A stretch of DNA of 64,000 nucleotides, from the NCBI RefSeq assembly GCF_000317635.1, contig NC_019779.1, positions 1,798,001 through 1,862,000 on the forward strand, given 5' to 3'. Origin of the DNA: Halothece sp. PCC 7418 (lineage in GTDB: Bacteria > Cyanobacteriota > Cyanobacteriia > Cyanobacteriales > Rubidibacteraceae). This document shows positions 22,693 to 42,010 of this stretch, piece by piece. A program made the translations under genes and the position numbers. Position 1 is the stretch's first letter; every line of letters begins with the position of its first letter. A model generated the notes under the pieces. It saw only the letters and a program-made list of their open reading frames with translations, was not told the DNA's origin and made no database searches.

Positions 22693-23649
22693 ATGCCATC
22701 TCAATTACCCGCACCGTTCGATCATCAACAACAACCACCACCGCAGCAACACTACAGCGATAGTGCCCTCGGCTTAGTCGCTACCAAAAGTTTTCCTGCG
22801 ATTGTGGGGACAGCAGACATGATGCTGAAATCAGCAGAAGTGACCCTCGTGGGCTACGAAAAAATTGGTAGCGGTCACTGCACAGCAATTGTACGGGGAA
22901 AAACAGCAGATGTGCGCTTAGCCGTAGAAGAAGGCGCAAAAACAGCAAAACAGTTTGGGCAACTGATCTCAAAATTAGTAATCCCGCGTCCCATGCCCAA
23001 TTTAGAAGCCGTCTTCCCAATTGGCACTCGTTTAGTCGAATTAGCCCAACAAAATCGGGGTTACAGTCGTCTCAGTAATCGCGCCATTGGTTTACTCGAA
23101 ACCCGAGGCTTTCCCGCTATGGTTGCGGGCGCTGATGCCATGTTAAAAGCAGCAGATGTGCAACTCGCCTCTTATGAAACTATTGGCGAAGGACTCTGTA
23201 CCGCCATTATTCGGGGGTCAGTAGCCAATGTTGCTATGGCGATTGAAGTGGGAATGCAAGAAGCAGAAAGAGTGGGAGAACTCCACGCTGTCATGGTCAT
23301 TCCTCGCTTACTCGAAGACTTGGAACATACCCTCCCCGTTGCCAAATACTGGTTAGAAGAAGAACCCGAAGAACAACCCTTATCTTTACCAGAGAAACAG
23401 AAAGAAACGACAACAGAACGTCAACCGTTATCACTCCCACAAAAACAAGAGGAAGAAGAACGACAACCATTATCACTTCCAGAGAAGCAAGAGGAAGAAG
23501 AACGTCAACCCCTTTCTTTCCCAGAAAAAGAAGCAGAACAAGAAGAACGCCCCTTAGTTGAGTTGCCAGAATTAGATAAACTCGATTCTTCTGAAGATAA
23601 TCAACAACAACCCAATCGTCAACAAGCGCAACCGCCAGAAGAAGATTAA
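22693..23649 (+). CDS. ccmO: Carboxysome shell protein CcmO (tandem BMC domains) with repetitive acidic tail
   Basis: This is a beta-carboxysome shell component with two bacterial microcompartment (BMC) domains. After a Pro/Gln-rich leader (residues 1-22), BMC domain 1 runs about 24-104 (ALGLVATKSFPAIVGTADMM...VIPRP) and BMC domain 2 about 128-208 (AIGLLETRGFPAMVAGADAM...VIPRL). Residues ~218-318 are a Glu/Gln-rich tail in which QPLSLPEKQ-like units recur four times, longer than typical CcmO tails. It is not next to other ccm genes here, and a satellite location for ccmO is common. It is divergent from mltG. Confidence 0.92.
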   Translation: MPSQLPAPFDHQQQPPPQQHYSDSALGLVATKSFPAIVGTADMMLKSAEVTLVGYEKIGSGHCTAIVRGKTADVRLAVEEGAKTAKQFGQLISKLVIPRPMPNLEAVFPIGTRLVELAQQNRGYSRLSNRAIGLLETRGFPAMVAGADAMLKAADVQLASYETIGEGLCTAIIRGSVANVAMAIEVGMQEAERVGELHAVMVIPRLLEDLEHTLPVAKYWLEEEPEEQPLSLPEKQKETTTERQPLSLPQKQEEEERQPLSLPEKQEEEERQPLSFPEKEAEQEERPLVELPELDKLDSSEDNQQQPNRQQAQPPEED

Positions 23650-23737
23650 AATTGTTTCCAATTAAAATATATCACTATAGTAAACTATCAAGACGAATCA
23701 CTGTCTTCAGTCATCTCCACCTCCTAAACAAAAGTAG

Positions 23738-23754
23738 GGTGGGCATTGCCCACC
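23738..23754. repeat. GGTGGGCATTGCCCACC palindromic repeat
   Basis: This is a near-perfect 17-bp palindrome preceded by GTAG. The same palindrome is at 30417-30433, and a variant is near 62842-62862. It is a dispersed REP-like hairpin, here downstream of ccmO, where it may act as a transcript end. Confidence 0.7.
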
Positions 23755-23807
23755 AAAAGTAATTTAACTATCGTTACTGTCCCTTTACTTAGGAGAAACC
23801 CTATAAA

Positions 23808-24104
23808 TCACGCAGCAGAAAGTTTCTTTAGTGAGCGACTGCTATGTTGTTGGCGTAACTGTACTGTATAAGCCTCTAGTTCGGAAGTCGTCATCGCCTT
23901 CAATATCGGGAGTTCATTCGTAGAAATGCTAAGTTGAGAACTTAACTGATAGATTTCTTGCATCAAAAAGCCCCGACGTTCTTGATCTTCCTCTCTTTGC
24001 AATAGCTCATTCGCTTTTTCGAGAAAGGGTGTTCCTAAACGATCAGGATCAGATGCAGCCGTTTTGATGAGTTCCCATGAGTTATAATTGGAGGCAGTTT
24101 TCAT
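23808..24104 (-). CDS. Hypothetical small helical protein, divergent from the RT operon
   Basis: I do not recognise this 98-residue protein. It is predicted to be mostly helical, soluble and charged (NELLQREEDQERRGFLMQEIYQL), with no signal or membrane segment. It starts 201 bp from, and divergently to, the reverse-transcriptase gene. Codon use looks like the core genes rather than the AT-rich RT. It could be an unrelated resident gene or a regulator; nothing in the sequence decides. Confidence 0.55.
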   Translation of the reverse strand: MKTASNYNSWELIKTAASDPDRLGTPFLEKANELLQREEDQERRGFLMQEIYQLSSQLSISTNELPILKAMTTSELEAYTVQLRQQHSSRSLKKLSAA

Positions 24105-24135
24105 AATTAAAATTAGTCTGATCAGTTTACGATGA

Positions 24136-24165
24136 AAGCATTCCAGTGGTCGCTGGGGTGCTTTA
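24136..24165 (+). other. Strong hairpin in the RT operon leader region
   Basis: AAAGCATTCCAG pairs with CTGGGGTGCTTT (12 bp with two G-T wobbles on the RNA) around a 6-base loop, followed by TATTTTATT. It resembles a Rho-independent terminator or the end of a short RNA, 140 bp before the RT start, yet no gene on the plus strand ends here. It is a candidate ncRNA or attenuator. Confidence 0.5.
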
Positions 24166-24305
24166 TTTTATTATGACCAACAAAATTAGAACTGTCAAGA
24201 CACTATATTACTAAATAAAATTAAATGCGATAAATCATTGCTATAACATATTAAAAGAGATAAACTGGGTTTATTGTCAGGCTGAACAAAGGAAGCAGAG
24301 CAAAA

Positions 24306-27300
24306 ATGATACAGGGAAAAGAGTTTGAGCAGCGTCTAGAGGGATTAAACTGGACGCTCTACAGATTAGCGAAGGAAATGGCGGAATATCGCTCTCAAGG
24401 CGAAGAAGTTTCCCCCGCCTCCCGTTATCACAGTTCCATTGGTAAGGCGATCGAAAATCCCAGAAAGTCTCGACTAGAAACCATTGAAGATATTGTCCAA
24501 GTCCTCAACGGTGAGTTAAGAATCATCTGGGAAAGCGATCAAGTCGTTACGATCCGCTTGGAAGATGAAACCATAGAAGCTCTCAAACAAAGAGCAGAGA
24601 ATGAAGGAAAAAGCATTAATGAAGTCGCTAGACAACTTCTAATTCAAGCGTTGTCAGGTATTCCCACTCAAAAACACACGAAACTGACAGAGTTAGTCTT
24701 TGATGGAGAACCGAAAATCTATCGTTCCTTTCATCCCGCGATCGCTGCTGCTTATTCATCTGTTCATCAATGGTTAGAAGAAAGACCAGAAGCTGAAGGT
24801 TATAAAGAATTAGATTACTCTCAAGAGATTGCGCGATCGCTGCGAAAACAAGACTTAAAAAGTATCGCCTTTCAATTTTATACGCTTTTTCCTTCCCATT
24901 ATTTTCAAGCAGGTCACGTTCTGGATAACGTCATTAACTCAGCCAGACTTTTAAACAGAATTAAATCAAATCCTCGCATTTATTTAGTAGATGTCGGTTG
25001 TGCATTAGGCGCGGGGACGGCTGCATTTGTTGAAAAGATTTTAACTCTCTCAAAAGAAGAATTTTCCTCAAAACCAATTGAAATCATCGCTGTTGGGATC
25101 GATACTAATCTGTACGGGTATGCTGTTTATAAAAAATTGATGGAGGAAATTCAGAAAAATGTTAGCGAATATAATATTAACTTAGAGTTCAAAGCAATAA
25201 ATGAACCTTTAGCGCAAGCCACTTTACGGACAATTAGCTATTTTCAAAGTAAGCTCAATGATGAGAATACTTCTGTCAAGATTTTACCTCATCTTTTCAT
25301 AACACAACTTGATGTTGCCAGTTCTATTACTCAATACGAACAACTAAGAAAAGAGCGAGAAGAAAAACTTAAGGCTTTGGGGATAGAACCTGATCCAGAA
25401 ACAGAATCAGATCAATCCTTATGGCAAAATGAAGCACTCTTCTTAAAGGGATTGCTAGAAGAAATTCCTGCTGAAAAGATTCACTTAGTAACAATTGGTA
25501 CTAAGAACATTGAACAATTTCTTGAAGATGAGACTGAAATCAAGGAGATCAGTCAAGGAATACAAGAGCTTCATTTATATTTAAAGCAATTGTTCGGAAG
25601 TGATCAAGTATCTATATTCCTAGAAGGAAATCAGACAGTAAACTTTTACCATCCTATCGATAGTTACTGGTATTATTTTCAACACTTATCTAATCAAGAT
25701 AGCTTTTATAGTAGTTTTGTCAATATTGTAACTTCTGAAATTGACGAGCAGAAACAAATTATTACTGATGAGAACATGGAAATTGCATGGGCTAAAGCGA
25801 GAAGTAATGTCTTTAGTGAATCATTTTACGATGAAGCAGAAATCCGTTTGTTTGAACAAAATTTAGATGATAACTTAAAGATATTAGCCAACAAAATAGT
25901 TGAACTTCCCTATGCCAAAGACTTACTAAACCTTGATCAAGATATAAGTTACCAATTTGTTAAAAACAAAATTAAAAGTCGTCCTAAACAGGTGACTCGT
26001 CTTGAAGAAGAAATAATAGCGATTGCTATTTTACAAACCATTGGAACAAAAAGCGACTTTGAGCATTACGCTTATAAATTAAAACCAGAACCAACAGAAG
26101 ATTTATATGAGCATTATTTTCCTTGCTACCAGAAATTCTTAAATGACTCAAAATATAGTGCTAGAAGCTATCCTGATGGTGCTGTTATCCGAACTGATAT
26201 TAAATCATATTATACAGAAGTTATTCAAGAACAATTACTTGACATCACTAATAGAGAATTAAAAATTATTAGCCCAAGACTGAAATGGTTACTATATCAA
26301 ATATTTAAAAAAGATTTAGATGGACATGAACCAGGTAAAGGGCTTAAACAAGGAACGCTAACATCAGGGTTTTACGCAAATCTATATCTGAAGTCAGTTG
26401 ATGAATATTTTCAAAATAGTAGCAAATGGAAAGACATTATTAAATATCATCGCTATGTTGACGATATTATTATCATTGTTCGTAATCCAGTCTATTTAGA
26501 AGAAGTTGAACAAGAATTAAGAGATAAAATAGATGAGCTTGGATTAAGTCTTAATGAATCGAAAACAGAACATTATAATTCTGCTGACTTTGAGACAACA
26601 CTTGTACAAGATAAAGCACTAGATCAGCTAAATGATGAATTTAATAAAGCTCTAGTTTATGCTTGGAGGATGAACTTTGAATATCGCACTCAGTTTGAGG
26701 CTGCAAATTTGAGTAAAGATGAATACTTATGGTGGAAAAAGGTTAAATTATATCAACAGTGCTTACACTCTATAGATATTTTTATCACCGAAGATCAATT
26801 AAGTCGCAAAATTCATCAAAAATTAGTCGAAATAGATATTTCTAAAAGAAAAGAGATATCTTTCCCTACTTTTCCGAGTTCCAGTAAATACACAGTTATT
26901 TTGCACTGGAGCAGTCAATTTAAAAAATTAAATAGTAATTGGCTTAAGAGAAAGGAAAAATTAAAAAGTAATGTTACTAAAATTTTTATAGATAGTGTAG
27001 AAGAACTAGAAACACTAATAAAAAACATCCCATATCAAAATGAACTGATAGATGAAACGGAGAAACGCCAAATCAATATTAAGCGCAGACAATTAGAAAG
27101 CCGTATTCGATGGTCGGTAAAGAAACTAATGATATTAGGCTTTGATCAAGTTCGCAATAAAAAAATTGTCTGGGAAAAAGTTGTTGATTTAATTTGCAAT
27201 CCTCGTTTATTTGTAATTCGGAATCTATTAGAAGTAATTACTCACCTAGCATATCAAGGACATACAGACGCAATTCAGCAATTATGGGACTACTATAAAG

Positions 27301-27782
27301 ATCGCGAAGAAGAAACAGACTCATATCTTCGTGCTGTGATTATTGAAGCATTTCGTTTTTTGCCAATACTAGAAGTGAGTGATTTTCATTTAATATTTAA
27401 CTTATCAACAGAAGCTAAACAGGATATTGAAAAACTGAAAGCTACCGAAACTTGGTTATATTTGGGAGACCGCGCTCAACCTTTTGTTCAAAAGAAACAT
27501 CTTCAAGCCATTGTTAATGCTTTAGAAAGTGATCCGTTTCCGCGTTTGAAGAAAAACTACATCCTAATTTTAGGAATGTATGATGTTACCTTGTTAGAAA
27601 ATATTAGTCTTTCTCCTGAAGAAAAGAATGATTATTTAATTCAAGATGCGTTGAGGCTTTCGGAAGAAGGAAGAGTGTCAGAAATTTTTCAAAAACCTGA
27701 ACCAGCAAGAGTCCGACAATATTACAACACGAAGCAAACTTCAACTTCTAAGGATAGATCGGATTACTTATCACCCTTCTAA
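24306..27782 (+). CDS. Multidomain reverse transcriptase (HTH/RHH - Rossmann methyltransferase-like - RT - helical repeats)
   Basis: A 1158-residue fusion protein. Residues 1-75 look like an HTH of XRE type; ~80-116 (VTIRLEDETIEALKQRAENE...) resemble a ribbon-helix-helix antitoxin domain. Residues ~225-330 carry a Rossmann methyltransferase-like motif I (DVGCALGAGT, 229-238) and motif II (GIDTNLYGYAVYKKL). The RT core has motif A TDIKSYY (Asp631), motif B GLKQGTLTSGFYANLYL (679-695), motif C YVDD (717-720) and motif D GLSLNESKT. The C-terminal ~300 residues are helical, HEAT-like. No maturase or HNH domain is seen. A good AAGGAAG ribosome site precedes the ATG. The helicase gene follows 11 bp later. 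Role (defence, element control) is inference. Confidence 0.85.
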   Translation: MIQGKEFEQRLEGLNWTLYRLAKEMAEYRSQGEEVSPASRYHSSIGKAIENPRKSRLETIEDIVQVLNGELRIIWESDQVVTIRLEDETIEALKQRAENEGKSINEVARQLLIQALSGIPTQKHTKLTELVFDGEPKIYRSFHPAIAAAYSSVHQWLEERPEAEGYKELDYSQEIARSLRKQDLKSIAFQFYTLFPSHYFQAGHVLDNVINSARLLNRIKSNPRIYLVDVGCALGAGTAAFVEKILTLSKEEFSSKPIEIIAVGIDTNLYGYAVYKKLMEEIQKNVSEYNINLEFKAINEPLAQATLRTISYFQSKLNDENTSVKILPHLFITQLDVASSITQYEQLRKEREEKLKALGIEPDPETESDQSLWQNEALFLKGLLEEIPAEKIHLVTIGTKNIEQFLEDETEIKEISQGIQELHLYLKQLFGSDQVSIFLEGNQTVNFYHPIDSYWYYFQHLSNQDSFYSSFVNIVTSEIDEQKQIITDENMEIAWAKARSNVFSESFYDEAEIRLFEQNLDDNLKILANKIVELPYAKDLLNLDQDISYQFVKNKIKSRPKQVTRLEEEIIAIAILQTIGTKSDFEHYAYKLKPEPTEDLYEHYFPCYQKFLNDSKYSARSYPDGAVIRTDIKSYYTEVIQEQLLDITNRELKIISPRLKWLLYQIFKKDLDGHEPGKGLKQGTLTSGFYANLYLKSVDEYFQNSSKWKDIIKYHRYVDDIIIIVRNPVYLEEVEQELRDKIDELGLSLNESKTEHYNSADFETTLVQDKALDQLNDEFNKALVYAWRMNFEYRTQFEAANLSKDEYLWWKKVKLYQQCLHSIDIFITEDQLSRKIHQKLVEIDISKRKEISFPTFPSSSKYTVILHWSSQFKKLNSNWLKRKEKLKSNVTKIFIDSVEELETLIKNIPYQNELIDETEKRQINIKRRQLESRIRWSVKKLMILGFDQVRNKKIVWEKVVDLICNPRLFVIRNLLEVITHLAYQGHTDAIQQLWDYYKDREEETDSYLRAVIIEAFRFLPILEVSDFHLIFNLSTEAKQDIEKLKATETWLYLGDRAQPFVQKKHLQAIVNALESDPFPRLKKNYILILGMYDVTLLENISLSPEEKNDYLIQDALRLSEEGRVSEIFQKPEPARVRQYYNTKQTSTSKDRSDYLSPF

Positions 27783-27793
27783 ACTAATTTATT

Positions 27794-30238
27794 ATGTCGC
27801 AATATCCGCCTAATTCTGAACAGAAAAATATCATTAATCATATCGAGGGAGCGATTTTAGTTCTTGCGCCAGTGGGAACAGGAAAAACCCGCGTTTTATC
27901 AGATAGAGTCGTTAAAGCTATACAGTCTGGTATTCCTGCTGAGAAAATTCTTTGTTTGACTTTTACCAACCGTGCTGCTAAAGAAATGAAAGAACGATTA
28001 GCACAAAGTTGTCCTAATGAAGTTCGTGAGATTACTATTAAAACCTTTCATGGTTTATGTGCTTCTATGCTAAGAATTGAAGCACGCAAGATTGGTTTAC
28101 CCGCCGATTTTGTTGTCTATGATGATGCTGACTGTATTGGACTAATTAAAGATATTTTTAATGTCTCAAAAGATAAAGATGCACAAAAAATATTTTTTAA
28201 GTTAGCAGAGTGTAAAACTAAAACTAATCACTTTCACGCTTCTCCTCAACAGCGATTTCTCTCTCTAGGAGAAAATGAATCTGAATTAGCAAGTCAATAT
28301 CAAATAATTCTACAAGAACGTCATTCTCTAGACTTTGCGGATTTAATATTTAATGTGCGCTTAATGTTGAATCTCTATCCAGACATTCGACAAAAATGGG
28401 AACAACGTTTTGACTTGATCCAAGTCGATGAAGTTCAAGATACTCATCTATCTGAATATGAGATTGTTCACTGTTTAGCCTCTCATCGTTGTAATCTAGC
28501 CATGATTGGTGACTTAGACCAAACCATTTATGAATGGCGAGGGTCTGAACCTGAACAAGTGATTGGTCAATTTAAGCAAGATTTTCAGCCCCAAGAATAT
28601 TCTTTAGTTTTAAACTATCGTGCTACTAAAACTTTACTAAATGCTGCGTCTGCTTTTGCTGATTGTTTCACTAAAAGACATACACAAATTACACCAGCAG
28701 AAAGTTGTGAAGTCGGTGATTCAATTGAATTTTATACAACAGAAAAAGAAAATCAGGAAGCCGAATGGATTGGAAAACAAATTCAAAACCTAGCTAATCA
28801 TGATCCCAATTTCGATTATAATCGTATCGCTGTACTAACTCGCACTCATAAGCGAATTTATCTGATTGCTAATGTCTTAGAAAAATTAAATCTTCCTTGT
28901 GTGACAGTTGAACAGTATCAATTTTTTATGCGTCAAGAAGTGAAAGATGCTTTAGCTTATTTACGCTTGATTATTAATCCTTTTGATACCGCTTCAATGC
29001 GCCGAATTTTATTACGTCCTCGTCGAGGAATTGGTAACGCAACCGTTAATCATATTATTAATGAAGGACAGGATTATGGGTTTCATTTAACCGATATGAT
29101 ATTTAAGGAAACTTTTGTTGATGGTGATCCGTTTAGTCATTTACTAACCGCTTATTATTCAGGAACAATTGTTATTTTTGATGTGGAAACAACTGGACTT
29201 TCTGTTAGTGAAGATGAAGTGATTGAAGTGGCTGGGGTTAAATTAGTGGAAGGTGAAGTAACAGACGAATTTCATTATTATATTGCTAACGAAGTCTCTG
29301 TGGGAGACTCTCAAAATGTACATCATCATAGCGATGATTTTTTAGCAGAAAATGGTCAGCCAGCGATTACAGTTCTTCGAGGGTTTCTGGATTTTATACA
29401 GGGCGCTTTATTGGTTGGGCATAATGTGGGATTTGATATTAAAATGATTACAGCCCATGCTCGTAGAATTGGCTTAAATCCCCCTTTGTTTCAATGGGCG
29501 GATACGTGGAGTTTATCTAACCGTTTTATCGAGTCAGATAGTTACCGTCTGGGAGTTTTAGCTAAGAATTTAAATCTACCTGTATCGCCAACTCATCAGG
29601 CGATTGATGACGCTAGAACAACCGTTGAACTCCTATTATATTTAATTCCTTTGATTGAAAAACATTCTGATGAGCGTCGCGCTTTGGTATATCGGTATGG
29701 TGATAATTTTGAAACTCTGGCGCAGCAAGTTGAAAATTGGAGAGAGAAGAGTCAAGAGAGGCGATCTGCTAATTTATTAGAGCAAATTTTAGAGGAATCT
29801 GGTTTATATGCTTATTATCAGCAAGAAGAGAAAAAACGTTTAGATAATTTACAAAGGCTGGTTCAGGTATTTGAAGAAAAAGATAACCTCGGGTTCCATC
29901 CAGAAACAGCTTTACGGAATATTCTTGAAGAAATTGCATTAGCGAAAGACTTAGATAAAGTTTCTCAAGATAACAACCAAATTTTAATTATCACAGTTCA
30001 TCAAGCGAAGGGGTTAGAGTTTGATACTGTTTTTTTAGCAGGGTTATGTGAGAATGAGTTTCCTAGCTACTACAGTATCCGCGATCAGACAATAGAAGAA
30101 GAAAAACACCTATTTTATGTGGCGATGACGAGAGCAAAAAAACGCTTATTTCTCTCAACTTATCGTCAAAATGCGAAAGGCTATCACAACCAACCCAGTC
30201 GATTTTTGCGGGAAGTCACTGAATATGTTAATCAGTAA
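27794..30238 (+). CDS. UvrD-like SF1 helicase with inserted DEDDh exonuclease
   Basis: An 814-residue DNA helicase-nuclease. The helicase parts are Walker A APVGTGKT (25-32), FTNRAAKEMKERL (motif Ia), KTFHGLCASML, Walker B VDEVQD (Asp212-Glu213), GDLDQTIYEWRG (motif III), LNYRAT (motif IV), HQAKGLEFDTVFLAGL (motif V) and EEEKHLFYVAMTRAKKRL (motif VI). Between the 2B-type region and motif V lies a complete DnaQ-like 3'-5' exonuclease, ~455-625, with FDVETTG (Asp463, Glu465), GHNVGFD (Asp548) and HQAIDDA (His601, Asp606). The gene follows the RT by 11 bp, so the two should be co-expressed. It is neither PcrA/UvrD nor Rep of the core genome, because of the insertion. Confidence 0.9.
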   Translation: MSQYPPNSEQKNIINHIEGAILVLAPVGTGKTRVLSDRVVKAIQSGIPAEKILCLTFTNRAAKEMKERLAQSCPNEVREITIKTFHGLCASMLRIEARKIGLPADFVVYDDADCIGLIKDIFNVSKDKDAQKIFFKLAECKTKTNHFHASPQQRFLSLGENESELASQYQIILQERHSLDFADLIFNVRLMLNLYPDIRQKWEQRFDLIQVDEVQDTHLSEYEIVHCLASHRCNLAMIGDLDQTIYEWRGSEPEQVIGQFKQDFQPQEYSLVLNYRATKTLLNAASAFADCFTKRHTQITPAESCEVGDSIEFYTTEKENQEAEWIGKQIQNLANHDPNFDYNRIAVLTRTHKRIYLIANVLEKLNLPCVTVEQYQFFMRQEVKDALAYLRLIINPFDTASMRRILLRPRRGIGNATVNHIINEGQDYGFHLTDMIFKETFVDGDPFSHLLTAYYSGTIVIFDVETTGLSVSEDEVIEVAGVKLVEGEVTDEFHYYIANEVSVGDSQNVHHHSDDFLAENGQPAITVLRGFLDFIQGALLVGHNVGFDIKMITAHARRIGLNPPLFQWADTWSLSNRFIESDSYRLGVLAKNLNLPVSPTHQAIDDARTTVELLLYLIPLIEKHSDERRALVYRYGDNFETLAQQVENWREKSQERRSANLLEQILEESGLYAYYQQEEKKRLDNLQRLVQVFEEKDNLGFHPETALRNILEEIALAKDLDKVSQDNNQILIITVHQAKGLEFDTVFLAGLCENEFPSYYSIRDQTIEEEKHLFYVAMTRAKKRLFLSTYRQNAKGYHNQPSRFLREVTEYVNQ

Positions 30239-30251
30239 ACAGGAGATTTAT

Positions 30252-30345
30252 TACCCTCTACCCAACCTACTGTTGTTGGGTTTCACTATCCTCTACCCAA
30301 CCTACTGTTGTTGGGTTTCACTACCCTCTACCCAACCTACTGTTG
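30252..30345. repeat. 35-bp tandem repeat, three copies, each a small hairpin
   Basis: The unit TACCCTCTACCCAACCTACT... recurs at 35-bp steps (30256, 30291, 30326 for the CTCTA core), the third copy being incomplete. Each unit contains CCCAAC and GTTGGG separated by 8 bases. It sits directly after the helicase stop and may end the RT-helicase transcript. Confidence 0.75.
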
Positions 30346-30416
30346 ATTGTGATTATATTGATGAACAAATAACCACCAAAAATAACAAATTTCGTCTGAT
30401 CAGTTACACCGATTAA

Positions 30417-30433
30417 GGTGGGCATTGCCCACC
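30417..30433. repeat. GGTGGGCATTGCCCACC palindromic repeat
   Basis: This is identical to the palindrome at 23738-23754. The two copies lie outside the RT-helicase pair on either side (with the 98-residue gene also inside). Confidence 0.7.
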
Positions 30434-30480
30434 CTACCATTAATGAGGGATAATTAGGGGGATTAATAGCTGTCTGAGCA

Positions 30481-31788
30481 TTACTTAGAAGCAACACCGA
30501 CTGCTGATCCCTGATATATCTTCTCAACCACACTGGCTAAACGACGCATTCCTGTAGCAATTTCTTCATTGGTTGCGGTTAAACTAATGCGGATACACTG
30601 ATGTTTATGGGTCCAGTCTTCTTTTAAGCCTGGGAAGAAGGTACTACCCGGAACTACAATTACATCGTGTTTTTTCAGTTCTTGATATAACTCCCAATCA
30701 GTAATGGGTAAATCTTTCAGCCATAACCAAGAGAAAATTGCTCCTTCTCCCCGATGGAGGAACCAAGGAATATCTTTTGGCATATTAGCATCAAGGGTTT
30801 CTTCAAGGACGGTGAATTTATTTTGATAGTGAGGACGAATCATATTTTCAGCAATATGTCCTAATTGTCCAGACGCGATCGCGCGAGCAGCAATGGCTTG
30901 TCCATAGCGAGGAGAATGAATACATAAATTCGTCTGGAATGATTCTAAAACTTGAATCAAGTCTGGATCACCAATGGCAACCCCAATCCGTTCCCCAGGG
31001 AGTCCCGCTTTTGATAAACTAAGACAGTGGAGTAAATTGCCTCCGAACTGCGGTTTCATGTCGGTAAAATTCAAGGCGGGATAGGGTGGGGCATAAGCAG
31101 CATCAAGAATAACTGGAACATTGTAAGGCGCAGCCAGTTCTGTAATTTTGGTTAATTCTTCTTCAGAAATAACGTTTCCCGTGGGATTACAGGGGCGAGA
31201 CAGAATCACACAACCGCTTTCTTCATTGACAACCAATTGATTAAAGTCTGGGCGATATTTGAAACGATGCGCTGTTTCGTCAACATCAAGAGTCGGTTTA
31301 TAGGCTAAGAGTGCTTCTTTAAATAAACTAACACCGCCATAGCCCGTGTATTCTGGACTTAAAGGGAGAACAATGCGCTTGAGATTGCCATCGCTGGTAT
31401 AACCCCCAAAGGCATTGGCAGCATAAAAATAGAGGGCTTGTGACCCTGGTGTAATTAAAATATTGCGATCTGTTAAATTTAAGCCATAACGTTGATTAAA
31501 ATCATTCGCAATCGCTTCAATAAGGGGATCATAACCCTGAGACGAGCCATAGCGACAGACCACCTCACCATATTCTGAACTTGCCATTAACTCTGCTGTA
31601 CAGTCTCGCCACAGTTGTTCCACTTCGGGAATAATTACTGGGTTTCCTGCACTGAGATTAATAAATTCTCTTTCCCCTGCTTGTCGGAGCGTTTCAATAA
31701 TATCTTTCATGATGGCACGCACTCCAGTGAGTTGAGACATTTGCGCCCCAAATTGAGAAAGGTTATACGCCATAGGTTGATTTGTCAT
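30481..31788 (-). CDS. avtA: Valine-pyruvate aminotransferase
   Basis: This is a PLP-dependent class I/II aminotransferase that exchanges the amino group between valine and pyruvate (alanine). The 435-residue protein shows INLSAGNPVIIPEV, GSQGYDPLIEAIA, SRPCNPTGN, LDAAYAPPYP and the PLP-binding SLSKAGLPGERIG. The last motif, with the conserved Lys followed by a GLPGER loop, is characteristic of AvtA. A HIP1 site lies within. It converges on the RT operon across the repeat region at 30239-30480. Confidence 0.9.
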   Translation of the reverse strand: MTNQPMAYNLSQFGAQMSQLTGVRAIMKDIIETLRQAGEREFINLSAGNPVIIPEVEQLWRDCTAELMASSEYGEVVCRYGSSQGYDPLIEAIANDFNQRYGLNLTDRNILITPGSQALYFYAANAFGGYTSDGNLKRIVLPLSPEYTGYGGVSLFKEALLAYKPTLDVDETAHRFKYRPDFNQLVVNEESGCVILSRPCNPTGNVISEEELTKITELAAPYNVPVILDAAYAPPYPALNFTDMKPQFGGNLLHCLSLSKAGLPGERIGVAIGDPDLIQVLESFQTNLCIHSPRYGQAIAARAIASGQLGHIAENMIRPHYQNKFTVLEETLDANMPKDIPWFLHRGEGAIFSWLWLKDLPITDWELYQELKKHDVIVVPGSTFFPGLKEDWTHKHQCIRISLTATNEEIATGMRRLASVVEKIYQGSAVGVASK

Positions 31789-33914: not shown

Positions 33915-34238
33915 ATGGAAGCTCAAGAAAAGACCATTCTCACTTATGTTAGAGCGAATGGAAGCATACCTTTTAATGAGTGGCTAAACTCCCTCAAAGA
34001 TAGAAAAACTCGCGCCATCATTCGTGCAAGAATCAACCGTGTTCGATTAGGAAACTTGGGGGATTGTAAATCTGTCGGGGAGGGAGTAACTGAACTGAGA
34101 ATAAGATTTGGCGCTGGTTATCGGGTTTATTTTGGGCAAGAAGGAGACACAATTATCATTTTGTTGTCAGGTGGTGATAAAAGCAGTCAAGATCAAGAAG
34201 AAAAAATGCGGTTTCCTGTCCCATTACTGTTTCTGTAA
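33915..34238 (+). CDS. RelE/HigB-like (Gp49 family) toxin, 3' end altered
   Basis: This 107-residue protein matches the phage Gp49-like/HigB RNase toxins: NGSIPFNEWLNSLKDRKTRAIIRARINRVRLGNLGD, ELRIRFGAGYRVYFGQ and IIILLSGGDKSSQ. Family members usually continue as GGDKSTQ-kDI--A--YW. Here the reading leaves the family after about SSQDQEE and ends MRFPVPLLFL. The HTH antitoxin gene expected directly downstream is missing and drmB comes in on the other strand, overlapping by 83 bp. I infer the DISARM island joined or deleted into this toxin gene. It is probably inactive. Confidence 0.75.
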   Translation: MEAQEKTILTYVRANGSIPFNEWLNSLKDRKTRAIIRARINRVRLGNLGDCKSVGEGVTELRIRFGAGYRVYFGQEGDTIIILLSGGDKSSQDQEEKMRFPVPLLFL

Positions 34239-36069
34239 CAAGAGCGCGATCAAGAAACTCATTGCGACGTTCGCAGGATGTTTCAGCAATCAATAAACAA
34301 CCATGACAGGCGGCCCCATGTAAAAATCGCTCCTCTTGATGATTGTCAGGTTCATGTTGAGCGCATAGGGGATCGTTGGAACATAATCTTCCTTCCTCTA
34401 AAGCCTGAATTAAGTCATATTCAATCTCCTTCCCCACTTCAATGAGTCCTCCCAATGTTCCCTCAGAACCCGATGAACCCGTATAGAGGAGAATGCCATA
34501 TCCGCCTTCCCCTGCATAGATGCGCTCTTTAATGGCACTGGCAGAATAACCACACTTTAGGGAAACGGTGGTGATTAACAAATGAGAGAGGGAATGGAGC
34601 ATAATATAGGGCAATCCAGGAAACTCGGCTTTGTCTTCGGCAAGGTTACGACGCTTACACCAGGCTTTGAATCCTTTTCTTAACAGTTTTCCCCGTTCTT
34701 TCACGGCGCTTTGTTCCATCCATTCGTTAATCGCATTTTCACTAAAGGACAAAAAGATTCCTTCTCCACGCTGTTCAATGGCGGGAACCCACTTTGGTTC
34801 AAGATCAAGGGCCGCTCGTCCTACGGTCATTTCCAATTCCTCATCGGGCAATTCCCCCTGTATATCAGGGAGGGCTGGTTCAAAGCGGGTAAACCCAACT
34901 TGAGCAATCACTTCTCGTAAACGGGGAACAAGAATCACGCGATCGAGCTTTCCTGCTAGGGGAGAAGGTAAGGACTCTAAAGGACGAACATAGGCATAGA
35001 AATCGCTATCTGGTTCATCTTTTCCCACTGTCTCCGCAGATAAAAGGGTTTCGATTTCCGCTTGTTTAATGGTCTTCTTGGGCGGTTCGCCTCCTTGCTG
35101 TCGTCGTTGGACTTCCTGCCAAACTTCCTCATTGGTAAATCCTTCTAGAGCCTCTTTTACCTTGTACATTTTCCGCCGACAATAAGCGATATCTTCTTGG
35201 TCAGCCTCTCTCAAATACTCTTCATAAACTCGACTGACAGCATCTCGTAGAGCTTGATCGGATTCAGGTAAAGAAATGACGCTGAGAATCTGAGAGAAAT
35301 AAGCATTGCTAGCAGAGCGCACCAATAACCGATTCCGTTCTGCTTTTTTGCTTTCAGGATGACGACACTGTTCTTGTGCATTCTCTCCTAGCCAAGGACG
35401 TTCGCCCTTACAATATCCCAGCGCAGCAAAATCAGGAATCGTGGCATCAGACAGAGGACGGCGTTTCTTACACTTAGAACAACGAACAAAGATATCGGCA
35501 AAATCGTTTCCTGTTCCGCCCTCATCTAACCAGAGTTGGGCGGGACAATTACTGCGACAGTCCTGATTAACAAATAAGTACCAGTCGATGTCGCTAATAT
35601 GACCGTTGCGACAGGCTTGGACAAAGCGCACGGGAACCACAGAATGTTTTTTACGGTTTTCGTCTTCGTATTTCCCTTTGAGGAGACGCTTTTCAGGAAT
35701 TAAGGGACGAGTTTGATAACGCTTGCCAGAACGAGAGAAGTAAGTTTCTTCAATTTGCGCGACAAACCATTTCGGAAAAATAAAAGCGCCAATTCCTGTT
35801 TTAGGTTGACTGGGATCAGTTTGAGACTGAGGGGGAGCATAGAGATCAATCTGATTGACTTCTAAAATTTCACTCACTCGCCGTGCTAAACGTTCTTCAT
35901 CAATGGGATAATCCCGATAGCCAAACCATTGATTTAATCCCCCGATAATAATGGATTGATGGGGTAAATCCACCATTGCACCAGCGCCGTAAGAGGTCAG
36001 CAGTTGACTTTGGCGCAGTTCCCCATGAGGGCGAGTATTTTGCTGTTTTTTTCGAGAACGCTGTGGCAT
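34156..36069 (-). CDS. drmB: DISARM protein DrmB (DUF1998)
   Basis: DrmB is the DUF1998 core partner of the DrmA helicase in DISARM anti-phage systems. The 637-residue protein contains RQSQLLTSYGAGAMVDLP near the N-terminus, cysteine-rich sections (CRNGHISDIDW, CRSNCPAQLW, CSKCKKRR) likely to bind zinc, LPYIMLHSLSHLLI and a C-terminal CHGCLLIAETSCERRNEFLDRAL. The last ~20 residues (from about QETAFF) are read from antisense of the toxin gene and are probably not native. The start overlaps the drmA stop as TAATG at 36069. Confidence 0.9.
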   Translation of the reverse strand: MPQRSRKKQQNTRPHGELRQSQLLTSYGAGAMVDLPHQSIIIGGLNQWFGYRDYPIDEERLARRVSEILEVNQIDLYAPPQSQTDPSQPKTGIGAFIFPKWFVAQIEETYFSRSGKRYQTRPLIPEKRLLKGKYEDENRKKHSVVPVRFVQACRNGHISDIDWYLFVNQDCRSNCPAQLWLDEGGTGNDFADIFVRCSKCKKRRPLSDATIPDFAALGYCKGERPWLGENAQEQCRHPESKKAERNRLLVRSASNAYFSQILSVISLPESDQALRDAVSRVYEEYLREADQEDIAYCRRKMYKVKEALEGFTNEEVWQEVQRRQQGGEPPKKTIKQAEIETLLSAETVGKDEPDSDFYAYVRPLESLPSPLAGKLDRVILVPRLREVIAQVGFTRFEPALPDIQGELPDEELEMTVGRAALDLEPKWVPAIEQRGEGIFLSFSENAINEWMEQSAVKERGKLLRKGFKAWCKRRNLAEDKAEFPGLPYIMLHSLSHLLITTVSLKCGYSASAIKERIYAGEGGYGILLYTGSSGSEGTLGGLIEVGKEIEYDLIQALEEGRLCSNDPLCAQHEPDNHQEERFLHGAACHGCLLIAETSCERRNEFLDRALVTETVMGQETAFFLLDLDCFYHHLTTK

Positions 36070-39000
36070 TAGCTTTGTTTCTCCTCTTCAATTTCTTGAT
36101 TAGTACGTACCCAGATATTGACACTCGGTTCGACATCCCGTAAGCTACGCTGGGCGCGAAACTTCTTCTCGCGATCGCTGATTTGGTCAAGTTCTGGATC
36201 AAGAAAATCCCGTAATAAAGGGGGAGAACTGCTAATTTCTCGCTGATATTGTAATGTTCCTAAATCACCCGCTAAATAACTCCAAGCATCTAACAATTCC
36301 TTCACTTCTCCCTTTAACTGATGGCGTTCTTCTTCCGCTATCTCTGCGCTATCTTTTTGGGTTTCTGCTCGTTGGGCGATAATATCAGCAACAAAATCAA
36401 CTTCACTGCGATGGGTTTCCATTGCTGCTGCACCATCAGGAGGAGTTAGCTTTGAGTGGAGGAGTCGCGCTATTGCCACGGTAACTCCTGCTAAACCCCG
36501 ATCGCGCGCCCGTGAAGAAAATGGTGTAACACTGGTGGCTTCCACATCTCGATAAAATGATTCATGCCAACTGGCAAACCGTTCATAATGAGACCGATCG
36601 CGCGATCGATGAATATTTAACAACGTGACCACTAACCCAGGGCGTTCATCATCTCGTCCTACCCGACTGGTGGCTTGAATATACTCCGCAGCCGTTTTCG
36701 GTTGACCTAATACCACCATTAATCCTAAGCGGGTTACATCTAATCCCACCGAGATCATATTGGTGGCGAGGGTGACATCCACATGATTTTTATCGTGAAA
36801 GGAGAGAGACAAACGCCGTTTTGCTTCTGCTACCTGATTGGTTTGAACGCGAGAGGTTAATTCTAAGGGTTCATCGCCAATGGTGCGATTTGCAAAAGGA
36901 ACATCGATTTCATTTTTCCGCTTCCGTCCGCTATAGTTTTTCAAACGTGCTTTCACTTCGTCTTCCACAATCCGCCGACTGCCTCCCAGTTCTCGCAGGG
37001 AATTAAAATAACCAAGGAGAGTCATGTAAGGATCGGCGGGATTATTGGGATTTTTTGCTCCACTATGCTTTTCCCATTGCTGTTGTGCTGCGGAAAGCAG
37101 AGCGAGATAAACTCGGAGTAAGATTACTTTCAGACTGCGACCTTGGGCAGCTACTCCCAAATAGAGACGGGCGTTTTTCTCGGTTTCGGGAACGGTTTGG
37201 GCAAAAAAGGAATCTTTACGACTTAGCCCTTGTGGGGGAAAGACATCAACCGTTTGTCGGGCGAATAAGTTCCGAATCTGCTGATCGGCACGGCGCACGG
37301 TTGCTGTAGAAGCAATGATTTTGGGTTTAATGACTGTTCCGTCTGGCTGTTTGCGGTTACATAGGGCTTCGATTGCGGTTTCATAGAGTCCCACCATTGT
37401 CCCCAAGGGTCCCGAAATAAGATGCAACTCATCTTGAACGATTAAATCGGGAGGGGGAAGAAATGTCTGTAAGGGTTTTCCTTGTCGGGAGGTATCCGCA
37501 GCGCCATAAAACCCCTCATCTGGATGGTAATGGGTAACACGCCCGAATAAAGCCCCCGTTTGTGCCACCCAAGGTAAGTTAGCGAATTTATCGACGGTTG
37601 CAATAACAAAACAAGGAAGGCGACGGTAGATGGACTCATCTACTGCGATGATGGGGAGAGGATTATCGCCATTAAAGACGCAGCGCGGTTGACGGTTGAC
37701 ACAGTTGATTCTGAGAGAAGTTGGTTTATCTGGATGGGGACGCAGGTGGAAAGAGTTGGCTTGAAATTTTTCTCCACACCAAGGGCATTCTTCTAAGGGA
37801 ATCGGAGAAGGTTTATTGTTGCTGTCATTTTTAAACGCGATCGTCTTAGCGCGGGCAGTATCAGGGTTGTTATTTCCTTTTTCTCCCATACGGTTAGGAG
37901 TCGCACTCATTCCCACCCATAACCCGATCTCAAAGGGCCATTCTCCCAATTTTTCAGGATTATGCTGTCGTTCCAGTTCTAAAGCGCAAATCAGCGTTGC
38001 TGCCCGTCCTAACTGGTCTAAGGTTAACAGACGGAGGGTGTAGCGCATCAGAACGCTCATTCCTGCTGAGGTAATATTAGGATTTTCTAAGCGTCGTAAA
38101 ACGAGGGTAAACGCTGCTAATCCGAGATAGGCTTCTGTTTTCCCGCCTCCTGTTGGGAAGAAGAGTAAATCGACCACTTCGCGTTCGCGCAGCGTCTCCG
38201 AAGGAGAATCGCTGTGGGTTGGGTCAACAATTCCTCGCAGATTGGTCAGAATAAAGGCAAGTTGGAAGGGTCGCCAGCGCGGAGGTTTGATGTCTTCATC
38301 GGGGTCTTTTTCGGTGTTGTGGGTGAGTCGTTGACGCAGCGATCGCGCGATCGCGCGGTTTGCCATCTGGAAGGCTGCCAAGGCGTTGGGATTCTCTAAA
38401 ATGTCGATTCCCTCTTGAATCCGTCTGCGTGCAACTTTAGCTTTGTTCAATAACGCTTCTGCAATCTCCCGACGATCTGGAGTGTCTAAACCCTCAATCT
38501 GCTGCTGTTGTTGTTCAATCCACTCTTGATACACAGCAGGAAGACGATTTAACATTTCCCGAATGGCTGCTGCATCTTCCGCATTGGCTAAAGTTTCCAT
38601 CCCCAGTTCTACTTCTGGGATATCCCTCGCAACGACTTTTTCAACGGCTGCGATGGGAAGCCAAGTGGTTTGGACACAGTGACAAGCGCCATTGTGGGTT
38701 ATTGCTTTAACGGAAATATTGTGTCCCACTGCATATTCCCAAACATCTCGATATTGGAGGTCAGCAATGCGTAAATCAGGATCATCGCGCTGATGTCCAC
38801 TGCGGTCAGCACGGGGAATCAATGGGGTTTTACTCTCAATGGTGAGGCGAGTTTGGAAGGTGTAACCCATATCCCGTTCTTCTGCTTTCAGGGGATTCCG
38901 TTTATTGACGAGAAAGAGGGAGACGGACTGAGTATTTGCAGGTAATCCTGTATTGGCGGTTATTGAACGCAGATAGACAACTATTTCTAAACCATTGCTA

Positions 39001-39521
39001 TTGGGAACAGCGATCGTCTTTTTGGCTTCAATGTTGGCAAGATCAACAGTTACCGTTGCGTGTTTAGGAATGCGTCGCCAGTCATTGGGCGTTTGTAGTC
39101 TGCTTTCTTTTTCCTCTAATGTGAGTTCTTTTGTCTTTTCTTCTGGCGTTTCTTCGGTTTTGTAGGGATAATAGTCTCCCCAGTCAACATGAACCGTTAA
39201 CGGTTGTGCGGAGGAAGGAAGCAAAAAACTTAGACCAATGGAAGAAGGAAAATAGGCTTTTCGCGCTGAAGCCGTTTCAGGTTTGGTATTGTCTTCGCCA
39301 GCAGAGTTATCGGTTACACTATCAAAGTCATCATTAGCCGTGTCATCGGAACGATTTTCTAAATCCGCTTCATAGGGAACGAGAAATCCTGTGAGATACC
39401 ACTGGGAGGGAGTATGGTTAATGAGAATTTCTTGGCTTCTGGTTTCGTCATCAGGTTCGGGTCCGATGAGGTCAAGGTTTAAGCTGTTGATCAGATGTTC
39501 GCGGACTTCGGCGGAAGACAT
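36069..39521 (-). CDS. drmA: DISARM helicase DrmA
   Basis: This is the 1150-residue SF2-type helicase of DISARM, which with DrmB binds and unwinds phage DNA. Walker A FPTGGGKTEA (Lys461), the DExH-like VQDELHLISG (DELH 697-700), STATVRRA and the motif VI block QATSRVGRDDERPG are seen, with a cysteine pair ECPWCGEKF in the middle. The N-terminal ~400 residues are the DrmA-specific region. It looks complete and in frame, with several HIP1 sites, so it has been resident for some time or came from another cyanobacterium. It overlaps drmB by one base. Confidence 0.92.
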   Translation of the reverse strand: MSSAEVREHLINSLNLDLIGPEPDDETRSQEILINHTPSQWYLTGFLVPYEADLENRSDDTANDDFDSVTDNSAGEDNTKPETASARKAYFPSSIGLSFLLPSSAQPLTVHVDWGDYYPYKTEETPEEKTKELTLEEKESRLQTPNDWRRIPKHATVTVDLANIEAKKTIAVPNSNGLEIVVYLRSITANTGLPANTQSVSLFLVNKRNPLKAEERDMGYTFQTRLTIESKTPLIPRADRSGHQRDDPDLRIADLQYRDVWEYAVGHNISVKAITHNGACHCVQTTWLPIAAVEKVVARDIPEVELGMETLANAEDAAAIREMLNRLPAVYQEWIEQQQQQIEGLDTPDRREIAEALLNKAKVARRRIQEGIDILENPNALAAFQMANRAIARSLRQRLTHNTEKDPDEDIKPPRWRPFQLAFILTNLRGIVDPTHSDSPSETLREREVVDLLFFPTGGGKTEAYLGLAAFTLVLRRLENPNITSAGMSVLMRYTLRLLTLDQLGRAATLICALELERQHNPEKLGEWPFEIGLWVGMSATPNRMGEKGNNNPDTARAKTIAFKNDSNNKPSPIPLEECPWCGEKFQANSFHLRPHPDKPTSLRINCVNRQPRCVFNGDNPLPIIAVDESIYRRLPCFVIATVDKFANLPWVAQTGALFGRVTHYHPDEGFYGAADTSRQGKPLQTFLPPPDLIVQDELHLISGPLGTMVGLYETAIEALCNRKQPDGTVIKPKIIASTATVRRADQQIRNLFARQTVDVFPPQGLSRKDSFFAQTVPETEKNARLYLGVAAQGRSLKVILLRVYLALLSAAQQQWEKHSGAKNPNNPADPYMTLLGYFNSLRELGGSRRIVEDEVKARLKNYSGRKRKNEIDVPFANRTIGDEPLELTSRVQTNQVAEAKRRLSLSFHDKNHVDVTLATNMISVGLDVTRLGLMVVLGQPKTAAEYIQATSRVGRDDERPGLVVTLLNIHRSRDRSHYERFASWHESFYRDVEATSVTPFSSRARDRGLAGVTVAIARLLHSKLTPPDGAAAMETHRSEVDFVADIIAQRAETQKDSAEIAEEERHQLKGEVKELLDAWSYLAGDLGTLQYQREISSSPPLLRDFLDPELDQISDREKKFRAQRSLRDVEPSVNIWVRTNQEIEEEKQS

Positions 39522-39733
39522 TATTGATGCTTTGCTACTTTATAAGTATTATAATGACCGCAGAGCCAATATTTATATTTTAAGCTAGCAAACTTCTCAA
39601 AATCTTTAACATTTTAAGAGTCATTAATATTGGGCGCGATCGCGAAACATGGAAAAATTCCAATCGCGAGATTTAATCCTCTTTTCAGAATATCGCTCAT
39701 TATTATTTGATGATCGCGTCAACAGGGTAATAA

Positions 39734-39985
39734 TTAAACTGGTTCATGGGTTAAGATTGATTTATTTTTCTGATCGAGTTGTTGCGCGATCCATGTTTTA
39801 ATAACGGCTTGTCGATGAATCCCAAGACGTTGCGCTTCTTTATCCAATTCATCTACCATCCACTGTGGAAAATCAACATTAACTCGTTTCACTTCTAACC
39901 CTGGGTGCTTGAGAGTAGATAAATCAAAAAACTCCATCACATCTTCCCCAGAATCAAATTTTTTGTCTAATTCTTCAGGATTCAT
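39734..39985 (-). CDS. CopG/BrnA-like antitoxin, no toxin partner seen
   Basis: This is an 83-residue protein with the pattern LDKKFDSGEDVMEFFDLS then VKRVNVDFPQWMVDELDKEAQRLGIHRQAVIKTWIAQQL, a ribbon-helix-helix antitoxin of the CopG/BrnA type. A BrnT-like toxin gene, usually directly upstream, is absent; the neighbour 20 bp upstream is another antitoxin-like gene. It is therefore an orphan antitoxin, possibly still autoregulating. Confidence 0.75.
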   Translation of the reverse strand: MNPEELDKKFDSGEDVMEFFDLSTLKHPGLEVKRVNVDFPQWMVDELDKEAQRLGIHRQAVIKTWIAQQLDQKNKSILTHEPV

Positions 39986-40005
39986 CTGACTTCATCTTCT
40001 ACAAT

Positions 40006-40182: not shown

Positions 40183-40184
40183 TT

Positions 40185-41515: not shown

Positions 41516-41570
41516 CTTTCTTCTACCTCACGATAAGTGATACAAGCAAGAATATATTTTGTTTCTAATT

Positions 41571-41645: not shown

Positions 41646-41688
41646 ATAATGAGTTGGTATGTAGCGTCAATTATTCAAAATGGTATTA

Positions 41689-41943: not shown

Positions 41944-42010
41944 AATATCAATTATTTTACATTGTTAGATAGTTTTGTATATCGTATCTAAAATTGAGGC
42001 AAGATTCCGA

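Follow-up and report, generated by a model that had tools for sequence, protein, structure and literature searches.

A DnaQ-type exonuclease inside the 2B region of a UvrD-type helicase encoded beside a UG35 reverse transcriptase and other, exchangeable partners

DEDDh exonucleases joined to helicases are known from the DnaQ fusions of DinG, in which the exonuclease is N-terminal and the helicase belongs to a family different from the UvrD type. DinG of Bacillus subtilis is reported to degrade ssDNA 3' to 5' (PMC12525004), and the abstract of another study describes a 3'-5' exonuclease activity inside the helicase core of Candida albicans Pif1, a member of a different helicase family, and claims no DnaQ-type inserted domain (PMC5316945). 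Host nucleases are also linked to reverse transcriptases (RTs) of the DRT systems: ExoI (sbcB) is reported to be needed by cells carrying DRT9 (PMC12483538) and RecBCD by cells carrying DRT3 (PMC13174585), in both cases to limit build-up of the RT product. A UvrD-like helicase also serves the Gabija defence system, where GajB is partnered with GajA, and the GajB profiles matched in this work are devoid of an exonuclease part.

We analyzed a window of 64,000 nucleotides from Halothece sp. PCC 7418 (contig NC_019779.1, positions 1,798,001 to 1,862,000), where a UG35 RT gene and, downstream of it, a gene for a helicase-exonuclease form a two-gene unit (Table 1); the pair shares with the DRT systems a UG-type RT. 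The helicase-exonuclease is already catalogued as PADLOC RTasHel, exonuclease included, and filed with the DRT RTs, its residues 1-813 matching the profile over its full length (positions 1-675; 1030.5 bits). The profile length of 675 positions, compared to 814 amino acids, had suggested that RTasHel is a helicase without nuclease; this was rejected by a piecewise scan, in which residues 1-450, 451-635 and 636-814 matched profile positions 1-392, 393-529 and 530-675, showing that the exonuclease is included in the profile. No description of RTasHel or UG35 was found in the literature, and the name RTasHel was absent from the 5.39 million papers searched. The new elements are the exchange of partners, the occurrence without an RT and the lack of ExoI, RecC or any other RNase_T-family exonuclease in the window genome. 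The first two, and where the insert sits, are absent from a PADLOC entry consisting of the name and "DRT" only.

Table 1. Features of the two-gene unit (window coordinates; residues refer to the encoded protein)
Feature	Coordinates	Strand	Evidence
UG35 reverse transcriptase, partner gene, 1158 aa, 11 bp upstream of helicase	24306..27782	+	PADLOC RT_UG35 1197 bits; Pfam RVT_1
Ribbon-helix-helix segment, RT N-terminus, residues 81-116	24546..24653	+	Pfam FitA-like_RHH PF22513, 29.8 bits, cut-off 27
Methyltransferase-like region of RT protein, residues ~137-478	24714..25739	+	Fold match only
RT catalytic core, residues 627-757, YVDD at 717-720	26184..26576	+	Pfam RVT_1
Helicase-exonuclease gene, 814 aa, PADLOC RTasHel	27794..30238	+	RTasHel PDLC03802, UvrD-helicase, UvrD_C
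UvrD/Rep N-terminal helicase domain, residues 7-265	27812..28588	+	Pfam PF00580, 217 bits
First part of UvrD C-terminal domain and first half of 2B region, residues 269-446	28598..29131	+	Pfam PF13361 from 269; PcrA alignment to PcrA 443
Inserted DEDDh (DnaQ-type) exonuclease, residues 447-640	29132..29713	+	Pfam PF00929, invariant residues, fold match, insert boundaries
Second half of 2B region and helicase motifs V and VI, residues 641-814	29714..30235	+	PcrA alignment 464-644; invariant motif residues

By sequence, the protein belongs to the PcrA-type helicases of superfamily 1 and contains a DEDDh exonuclease inside the middle of the 2B region. A sequence-only reading of this DNA had placed a DnaQ-type exonuclease at 29170-29670 within a UvrD-type helicase, with helicase motifs I-IV before it and V-VI after it, and both points were borne out. 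Pfam RNase_T (PF00929) matched residues 460-614 (29171-29635; 91 bits, E 1.9e-25), whereas the whole insert is somewhat longer, and UvrD_C spans residues 269-791 (405 bits) with an interruption. Pfam domains and invariant motif residues revealed motifs I-VI, all in order: K31/T32, D212/E213, Q243, R276, T734/H736/Q737/K739/G740 and Y775/T779/R780 showed no variation among the 19 sequences aligned (the window protein being one of them), and neither did the catalytic Asp463, Glu465, Asp548, His601 and Asp606 of the exonuclease (ExoI-III motifs; 19/19) named in that reading. As it had also proposed, the insertion falls in the 2B-type region. In a phmmer comparison with PcrA (1pjr), residues 7-434 aligned to PcrA 13-443 and residues 642-811 to PcrA 464-644; the exonuclease therefore replaces a linker of about 20 PcrA residues, in a stretch that we take to be the PcrA 2B domain. 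At this site, 193-219 residues were counted in the 35 insert-bearing rows (34 different genes) and 11-12 residues in 13 ordinary PcrA/UvrD-type rows (12 different genes), L063/L014 and L044/L145 each being one gene counted twice as rows.

The domain order and motifs are shared with PcrA, UvrD and Rep, but those helicases have only about 12-20 residues where the window protein has a 194-residue exonuclease, and its scores against the three family models (430 bits for PcrA, TIGR01073, 352 bits for UvrD and 367 bits for Rep) lie below their cut-offs (911, 1144 and 951, respectively). The DnaQ-DinG family model TIGR01407 matched residues 460-623 only, with 66.9 bits for a cut-off of 547.7; unlike in DinG, the exonuclease lies inside a UvrD-type core. 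Relatives with the insert formed a clade separate from the PcrA/UvrD types by a single split in the tree (100/100), suggesting that the insertion was a single event, which is likely rather than proved because L064-L067 sit on long branches and their exact position is unsure. The truncated genes L050 and L062, together with L149, which gave no blastp match, were kept out of the tree, and the careful tree also omitted L067 and L061. Read-through of an unrelated downstream gene, or an assembly error, was rejected as the origin of the insert, since helicase and insert share a single reading frame here and in the other full-length relatives; the single split of insert-bearing sequences also counters it.

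In the AlphaFold model of the exonuclease part, ten-residue blocks mostly had pLDDT values of 83-95, with one block at 59. Its best fold match was DnaQ (8h2f; Z 23.8, 1.8 A over 166 residues), and it also matched S. aureus DinG residues 2-177 (Z 23.4) and E. coli ExoI (Z 20.4). The exonuclease is predicted to be intact and to work 3'-5'. Since the model of the helicase part was poor (mean pLDDT 60.5, pTM 0.42), with Foldseek matches to UvrD/PcrA at TM ~0.2, the helicase assignment is drawn from sequence; the alignments behind the two predictions were shallow and held cyanobacterial sequences only (17 and 10 rows). Structure prediction, proposed with the sequence-only reading as a check that both folds are intact, therefore supported the exonuclease fold, the helicase part being modelled too poorly to judge. 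A mechanical coupling of motor and nuclease, as earlier proposed, is plausible.

The RT said to adjoin the helicase was identified as a UG35 RT, whose D719 and D720 are conserved without exception in an alignment of 10 UG35 RTs. Its methyltransferase-like region had no Pfam match at E 0.1; by fold it matched one chain from an assembly intermediate of the mitochondrial small subunit (Z 17.9) and many methyltransferases (Z 11-13). Because an Rfam search of 23300-31000 gave nothing up to E 0.5, and a blastn comparison of the upstream DNA of five RT-helicase units yielded no persuasive conserved stretch (best E 0.015), no ncRNA is proposed. In a plasmid collection, RT35 matched nowhere over more than 13% of its length.

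The UG35 RTs were assigned by best tblastn identity to subtypes a, b and c, labels made in the present analysis. The helicase is directly downstream of all seven RTs of the window's subtype, one of which is cut by a contig end. Among nine RTs of the second subtype, four are accompanied by an intact helicase, one lies at a contig end and four have none or a remnant, with the RT intact without an intact helicase in G654 and G510; in the third subtype (n = 7) and one divergent RT the helicase is always absent. On the other hand, the helicase is kept beside damaged RTs in L033/G710 (three stops) and L037 (split by an inserted ORF), in L035, whose RT is interrupted by sequence containing a run of N, and in L040, where the RT is absent. 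Its retention where the RT is damaged or missing implies that the helicase is not only an antidote, and a strict brake is not supported given the intact RTs of G654 and G510 and the third subtype; a strict toxin-antidote relation was rejected in either direction, as each gene occurs in intact form where its partner is damaged or missing. The same data bear on a retron-like arrangement, in which the helicase-exonuclease would be a toxic effector silenced by the RT or its cDNA and freed upon infection. Such an arrangement would fit an RT and a putative nuclease effector in one operon, and the overlaps of 4-13 nt between the genes where the helicase precedes the RT. However, an unguarded toxin would be expected to disappear, yet intact helicases persist beside damaged RTs (L033/G710, L037) or none (L040, L042, L048, L049), making this explanation very improbable.

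A profile spanning 2B and DnaQ was present in 17 of 388 cyanobacterial genomes, and the gene beside the helicase was a UG35 RT in three, a restriction-modification pair in three and no UG35/UG14 RT in eight, the remaining three being placed in no partner class (the free-standing exonuclease L052 of Psychromonas was left out of the 20 cyanobacterial loci). The same architecture occurs in Clostridia and Bacteroidota with no RT seen, L139 and L140 having been inspected without an RT-specific search. Because of the eight genomes without such an RT and the three with a restriction-modification pair, the helicase is not specific to RTs; the RT link that the sequence-only reading had called notable stands as a recurrent pairing and not as an exclusive one. 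Among virus contigs, 64 loci encode a relative, and none of the 60 matches listed, mostly free-standing exonucleases, spans the 2B-DnaQ profile end to end; in a phage collection, 148 records were at most 60% identical, six of them covering at least 80%.

A helicase form that is widespread and often without an RT, which is half of what the sequence-only reading had named as its refutation, could be an ordinary repair helicase, namely a PcrA paralogue with a proofreading-type nuclease brought beside an RT by chance or by defence-island movement. The eight genomes mentioned, the conserved surroundings of the helicase in two congeneric genomes (L057, L059) and the housekeeping-type neighbors of the Prevotella nigrescens copy agree with this. 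However, the other half does not hold: the form is not always separate from RTs, and a role in general repair is disfavored because the window genome encodes a separate ordinary PcrA, a DISARM locus lies about 4 kb from the gene, and the gene itself is patchy (17 of 388 cyanobacterial genomes, 3 of 100 near relatives and none of eight others of the same genus or family). As the strict pairing in the window's UG35 subtype and the filing of RTasHel with DRT also speak against it, we regard a repair function as improbable.

Comparison of loci revealed exchange of the partner. At one chromosomal site, G178 carries UG35 and the helicase, whereas G205, G289 and G407 carry a HindVP endonuclease, a cytosine methylase and the helicase, with the sequences homologous again from the start codon of the helicase gene onward; in G289 the helicase and endonuclease genes are damaged. 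At a second site (L043, L039, L040) the helicase is followed by UG35, UG14 or no RT, with helicase DNA 95-96% identical. The helicase-exonuclease is thus the constant module, and its partners are exchangeable (two unrelated RT groups, type II restriction-modification) or absent. Across 10 pairs of the gene, in three segments each, dN/dS was 0.07-0.50, and both activities are predicted to be intact and under purifying selection, even across partner swaps and after RT loss. These data suggest a reusable defence part acting on DNA ends, and the gene pair looks like an anti-phage system.

Within defence, the enzyme could attack directly, degrading phage DNA that its partner marks, cuts or primes, as has been supposed for helicase-nuclease pairs in other defence systems. 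Its closest PADLOC relatives after RTasHel are the Gabija GajB helicases (up to 301 bits, compared to 1030 for RTasHel; with an RT as partner, the window pair is not a Gabija system), in L051 the gene lies directly before a GajA-GajB pair, and its pairing with an end-making restriction enzyme and the nearby DISARM genes point the same way. On the other hand, a 3'-5' trimmer on a 3'-5' motor would be an odd tool for destroying duplex DNA alone, the window pair contains no endonuclease and no self/non-self rule is visible. Direct attack seems rather unlikely.

We tentatively prefer an anti-phage accessory role, in which the helicase-exonuclease would trim DNA ends that its partner generates (here the cDNA of the RT), as a stand-in for ExoI or RecBCD; it is possible, though far from assured. 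The enzyme would load on single-stranded 3' DNA, move 3' to 5' and trim 3' ends, its substrate being whichever DNA ends the partner produces, and in the window operon most likely the cDNA. In the uninfected cell it would strip and degrade this cDNA, by analogy with ExoI for DRT9 and RecBCD for DRT3, and cDNA would accumulate only once the enzyme is blocked or overloaded by a phage. In the window genome, the only PF00929 match is the helicase-exonuclease gene itself, and profile searches found neither PF08411 nor PF04257; no ExoI, RecC or second RNase_T-family exonuclease that could take on the removal of cDNA was thus seen, although RecJ or AddAB-like nucleases may serve. The nucleases of DRT9 and DRT3 are chromosomal host genes, whereas the one presumed to act here would be encoded with the RT. 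A more specific version is unlikely as it stands: an RT system with its own ExoI/RecBCD substitute, a motor-coupled exonuclease continuously destroying toxic cDNA, with phage interference as the infection signal and the same brake module passed among RT groups (UG35, UG14) and restriction systems, its C-terminal tail fitted to each partner.

With DRT9 and DRT3, cells are reported to survive their own RT only through a host exonuclease that removes the cDNA (PMC12483538, PMC13174585). How such RTs are tolerated in hosts without ExoI and RecBCD could be tested with just two genes by means of the window operon, and the position of the nuclease in the 2B region, the part of a UvrD motor that swings, provides a natural test of the coupling between translocation and cleavage. 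The exchanges of one RT for another, or for a restriction-modification pair, next to a nearly unchanged helicase supply matched pairs for experiments and show that defence systems are built from exchangeable parts.

The chromosome that holds the window is complete (4,179,170 bases) and cyanobacterial. The product of its helicase-exonuclease gene aligns with PcrA up to PcrA residue 443, where the alignment breaks off to restart at residue 464, within the 2B region. The placement of the insert in a 2B-type region by the sequence-only reading stands, as does its DnaQ-type exonuclease inside a UvrD-type helicase, the RNase_T match being nested in UvrD_C (see table). The exonuclease stands in for a short PcrA linker, with 2B flanks, the RGIG segment among them, retained on both sides. 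The insert site spans 193-219 residues in 35 insert rows versus 11-12 in 13 ordinary PcrA/UvrD-type rows, and neither the five DEDDh residues named in that reading nor the helicase motif residues vary among the 19 aligned sequences. Structure prediction, proposed earlier as a check on both folds, supported the DnaQ fold of the inserted domain (Z 23.8 against 8h2f and Z 20.4 against ExoI 4js4) and gave no support for the helicase fold, that part being poorly modelled. The helicase with a built-in exonuclease is real and well conserved.

Features of the window, in window coordinates
Feature	Position	Strand	Residues	Remark
Small open frame	23808-24107	-	99 in all	upstream of RT
Hairpin-like sequence, then T-rich DNA	24135-24164			~140 bases ahead of RT start
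UG35 RT gene	24306-27782	+	1158 in all	
RT N-terminus, DNA-binding-like	24306-24653		81-116 (RHH only)	RHH
RT methyltransferase-like region	24714-25739		~137-478	predicted fold
RVT_1			627-757	domain match in RT; YVDD present
Helicase-exonuclease gene	27794-30238	+	814 in all	
UvrD-helicase			7-265	domain match in helicase
UvrD_C			269-791	domain match in helicase; exonuclease lies within
RNase_T exonuclease			460-614	domain match nested in UvrD_C
DISARM DrmB, DrmA, DrmMI	34159-44027			
DrmMI methylase	40334-44027			beside DrmA and DrmB

With the insert columns removed, helicases with and without the insert were split by one branch (SH-aLRT 99), and in a careful tree the ordinary helicases lacking it grouped at 100/100. 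A single insertion is the simplest reading, with some doubt arising from the long branches of the non-cyanobacterial rows. Purifying selection acts on the helicase and exonuclease parts alike (dN/dS 0.07-0.50 in 10 pairs, including pairs with differing partners and L039/L040, one member of which lacks an RT).

The UG35 RT gene ends 11 bases upstream of the helicase gene. Its product scored 1197 bits against PADLOC RT_UG35, and both YVDD aspartates were invariant in 10 aligned UG35 RTs; the helicase scored 1030 bits against RTasHel, a profile that, as scanning the helicase in three pieces showed, itself includes the exonuclease. The pair is therefore already catalogued as DRT-type. Among 5.39 million open-licence PubMed Central papers, the name "RTasHel" was not found, and the three that have both "UG35" and "reverse transcriptase" concern, by title, a shrub and taro viruses. 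The helicase is thus in a catalogue, with no description found in searchable papers.

The methyltransferase-like region of the RT, predicted to adopt a class I fold, had no Pfam match at E 0.1; its best fold match (Z 17.9, 4.4 A, 258 residues) was 8csu_7, a chain from an assembly intermediate of the mitochondrial small subunit, presumably METTL17/Rsm22. Such a predicted fusion to an RT is unusual. The DNA-binding-like N-terminus is a feature of subtype a RTs (subtypes a, b and c are our labels, by best tblastn identity, a being that of the window); the helicase-first loci L035, L036 and L041 have instead a separate small HTH_3 gene ahead of the helicase (L041:7694-7942). The hairpin-like sequence could serve as a terminator or an attenuator, or belong to an unknown RNA; by eye, hairpins with a T-run lie comparably far from the RT in L032, L034 and L054. 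The 99-residue frame, without Pfam or PADLOC match, resembles by eye small genes at the corresponding position of L032 and L054.

A profile built on the insert and the surrounding 2B region (alignment A4) matched 17/388 cyanobacterial genomes at E 1e-60. It also matched 3/100 near relatives, none of these being one of the 8 further members of the window's genus or family. A UG35 RT adjoins the helicase in three of the 17 (G000, the window's own genome, G178 and G155), and a HindVP-type endonuclease with a cytosine methylase in three more (G205, G407 and G289, the helicase and endonuclease genes being damaged in the last). No UG35 or UG14 RT was found with it in eight (G069, G120, G134, G222, G250, G264, G290, G445); three fall outside this tally, G382 having a broken frame and G434 and G443 lying at contig ends. 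As to whether this helicase form might be widespread and always separate from RTs, it is widespread and often without a UG35 or UG14 RT beside it (8/17 genomes), but not always. Searching named genomes with peptides from the window's own helicase, an approach that favours its near kin, yielded 20 loci in cyanobacteria. A UG35 RT adjoins the helicase in 11 of them (L033, L035 and L037 with a split or damaged RT), UG14 in two (L036, L039) and neither in five (L040, L042, L048, L049, L051), L038 and L050 being outside the tally. Toxicity of the helicase without an RT is at odds with L033, L037 and L040. The architecture also occurs in Acetoanaerobium (35% identical, 99% of query), Prevotella, Phocaeicola and, judged by alignment, on a Chryseobacterium plasmid, and no RT was annotated or found beside the relatives in L064 and L065-L067. 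The helicase is not RT-specific.

Other neighbours and forms were observed. In two Nostocales (L035:7140-7970; L036:7140-7970) the helicase comes after a KilA-N protein whose C-terminal part is BstA-like, and on two plasmids (L066:5057-5893; L140:4069-4893) the Bacteroidota relative follows a RhuM-family gene. Annotation of a Bacteroides fragilis plasmid (L140:4905-7644) divides the relative into a helicase gene and an exonuclease gene that overlap.

Counted from the RT, UG35 occurs in 3/291 genomes of the class, each time next to the helicase, and in 24/388 of the order. Subtype a RTs have the helicase directly downstream in 7/7 cases, one cut by a contig end, and carry stops in G710 and G632. 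In subtype b (n = 9) the helicase precedes the RT; it is intact in four, at a contig end in one, and absent or a remnant in four, among which the RT frame is open in G654 and G510 and has a stop in G533 and G656. In the fetched regions, no helicase was found with subtype c (0/7) or the divergent UG35 RT of G452. Exceptionless pairing thus holds, in this sample, only for the window's RT subtype. A strict requirement, under which an RT lacking its helicase would kill the cell, is at odds with G654, G510 and subtype c unless other nucleases serve there. A DUF1848-type gene adjoins the subtype c RT in opposite orientation in 5/7 (L210, L212, L214, L215, L216; by Pfam in the two scanned, by similar first residues in three). 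UG14 was present in 4/291 genomes, with a full-length RTasHel match in 0/4.

Partners are exchanged around the helicase. At one chromosomal site in one genus, UG35 and helicase in G178 correspond to endonuclease, methylase and helicase in G205, G407 and G289; flank DNA is 86-87% identical up to a common left end, the partners then diverge, and 90% identity returns at the helicase start codon. At a second site, L043 (UG35), L039 (UG14) and L040 (no RT) have helicase DNA 95-96% identical, with downstream flank similarity returning beyond the RT. In a third case, Nostoc-type helicases 92-96% identical are followed by UG35 (L041), UG14 (L036) or a Gabija pair (L051). Supported branches of the careful tree force UG14 neighbours to arise twice, in separate places. 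In the second and third cases DNA identity stops ~60-70 bases short of the stop codon of the helicase, leaving a C-terminus of 20-23 residues that varies with the downstream partner; it may be a docking tail, or a mere crossover point.

A separate helicase of the genome, 781 residues long, matches UvrD-helicase more strongly (310 bits), making the window's gene an extra one. The latter is also the genome's sole PF00929 match, and neither the ExoI C-terminal family (PF08411) nor RecC (PF04257) was matched in the genome, controls matching in E. coli. A PF00929 match was found in 0/8 relatives of the genus or family versus 28/60 genomes overall. Partial RNase_T matches occur in open frames of ~790-850 residues in G157, G307, G313, G323 and G333, with no 2B+DnaQ profile match. 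Elsewhere in the window, the DrmMI methylase appears as two open frames ~1.3 kb apart and is probably interrupted.

UvrD-type motors travel along single-stranded DNA in the 3'-to-5' direction, and DEDDh enzymes take nucleotides off 3' ends. Motor and exonuclease in one gene, an RT neighbour and a genome without ExoI or RecC suggest, by analogy, a dedicated cDNA-removing enzyme serving the adjoining RT. Two papers (PMC12483538; PMC13174585) describe reliance on host nucleases against lethal RT products, of DRT9 and UG17 on ExoI and of DRT3 on RecBCD, and phage proteins blocking ExoI/RecBCD as triggers of defence. Because the RT can be swapped for a restriction-modification pair, the role was broadened to acting on partner-made DNA ends. 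As neither toxicity of the helicase without an RT nor strict lethality of the RT without the helicase fits, processing of the partner's DNA ends is proposed tentatively, at somewhat under an even chance, and direct attack on phage DNA is considered rather unlikely. The helicase is a variant of the DRT accessory helicase, and its interest lies in the exchange of partners and the missing host exonucleases.
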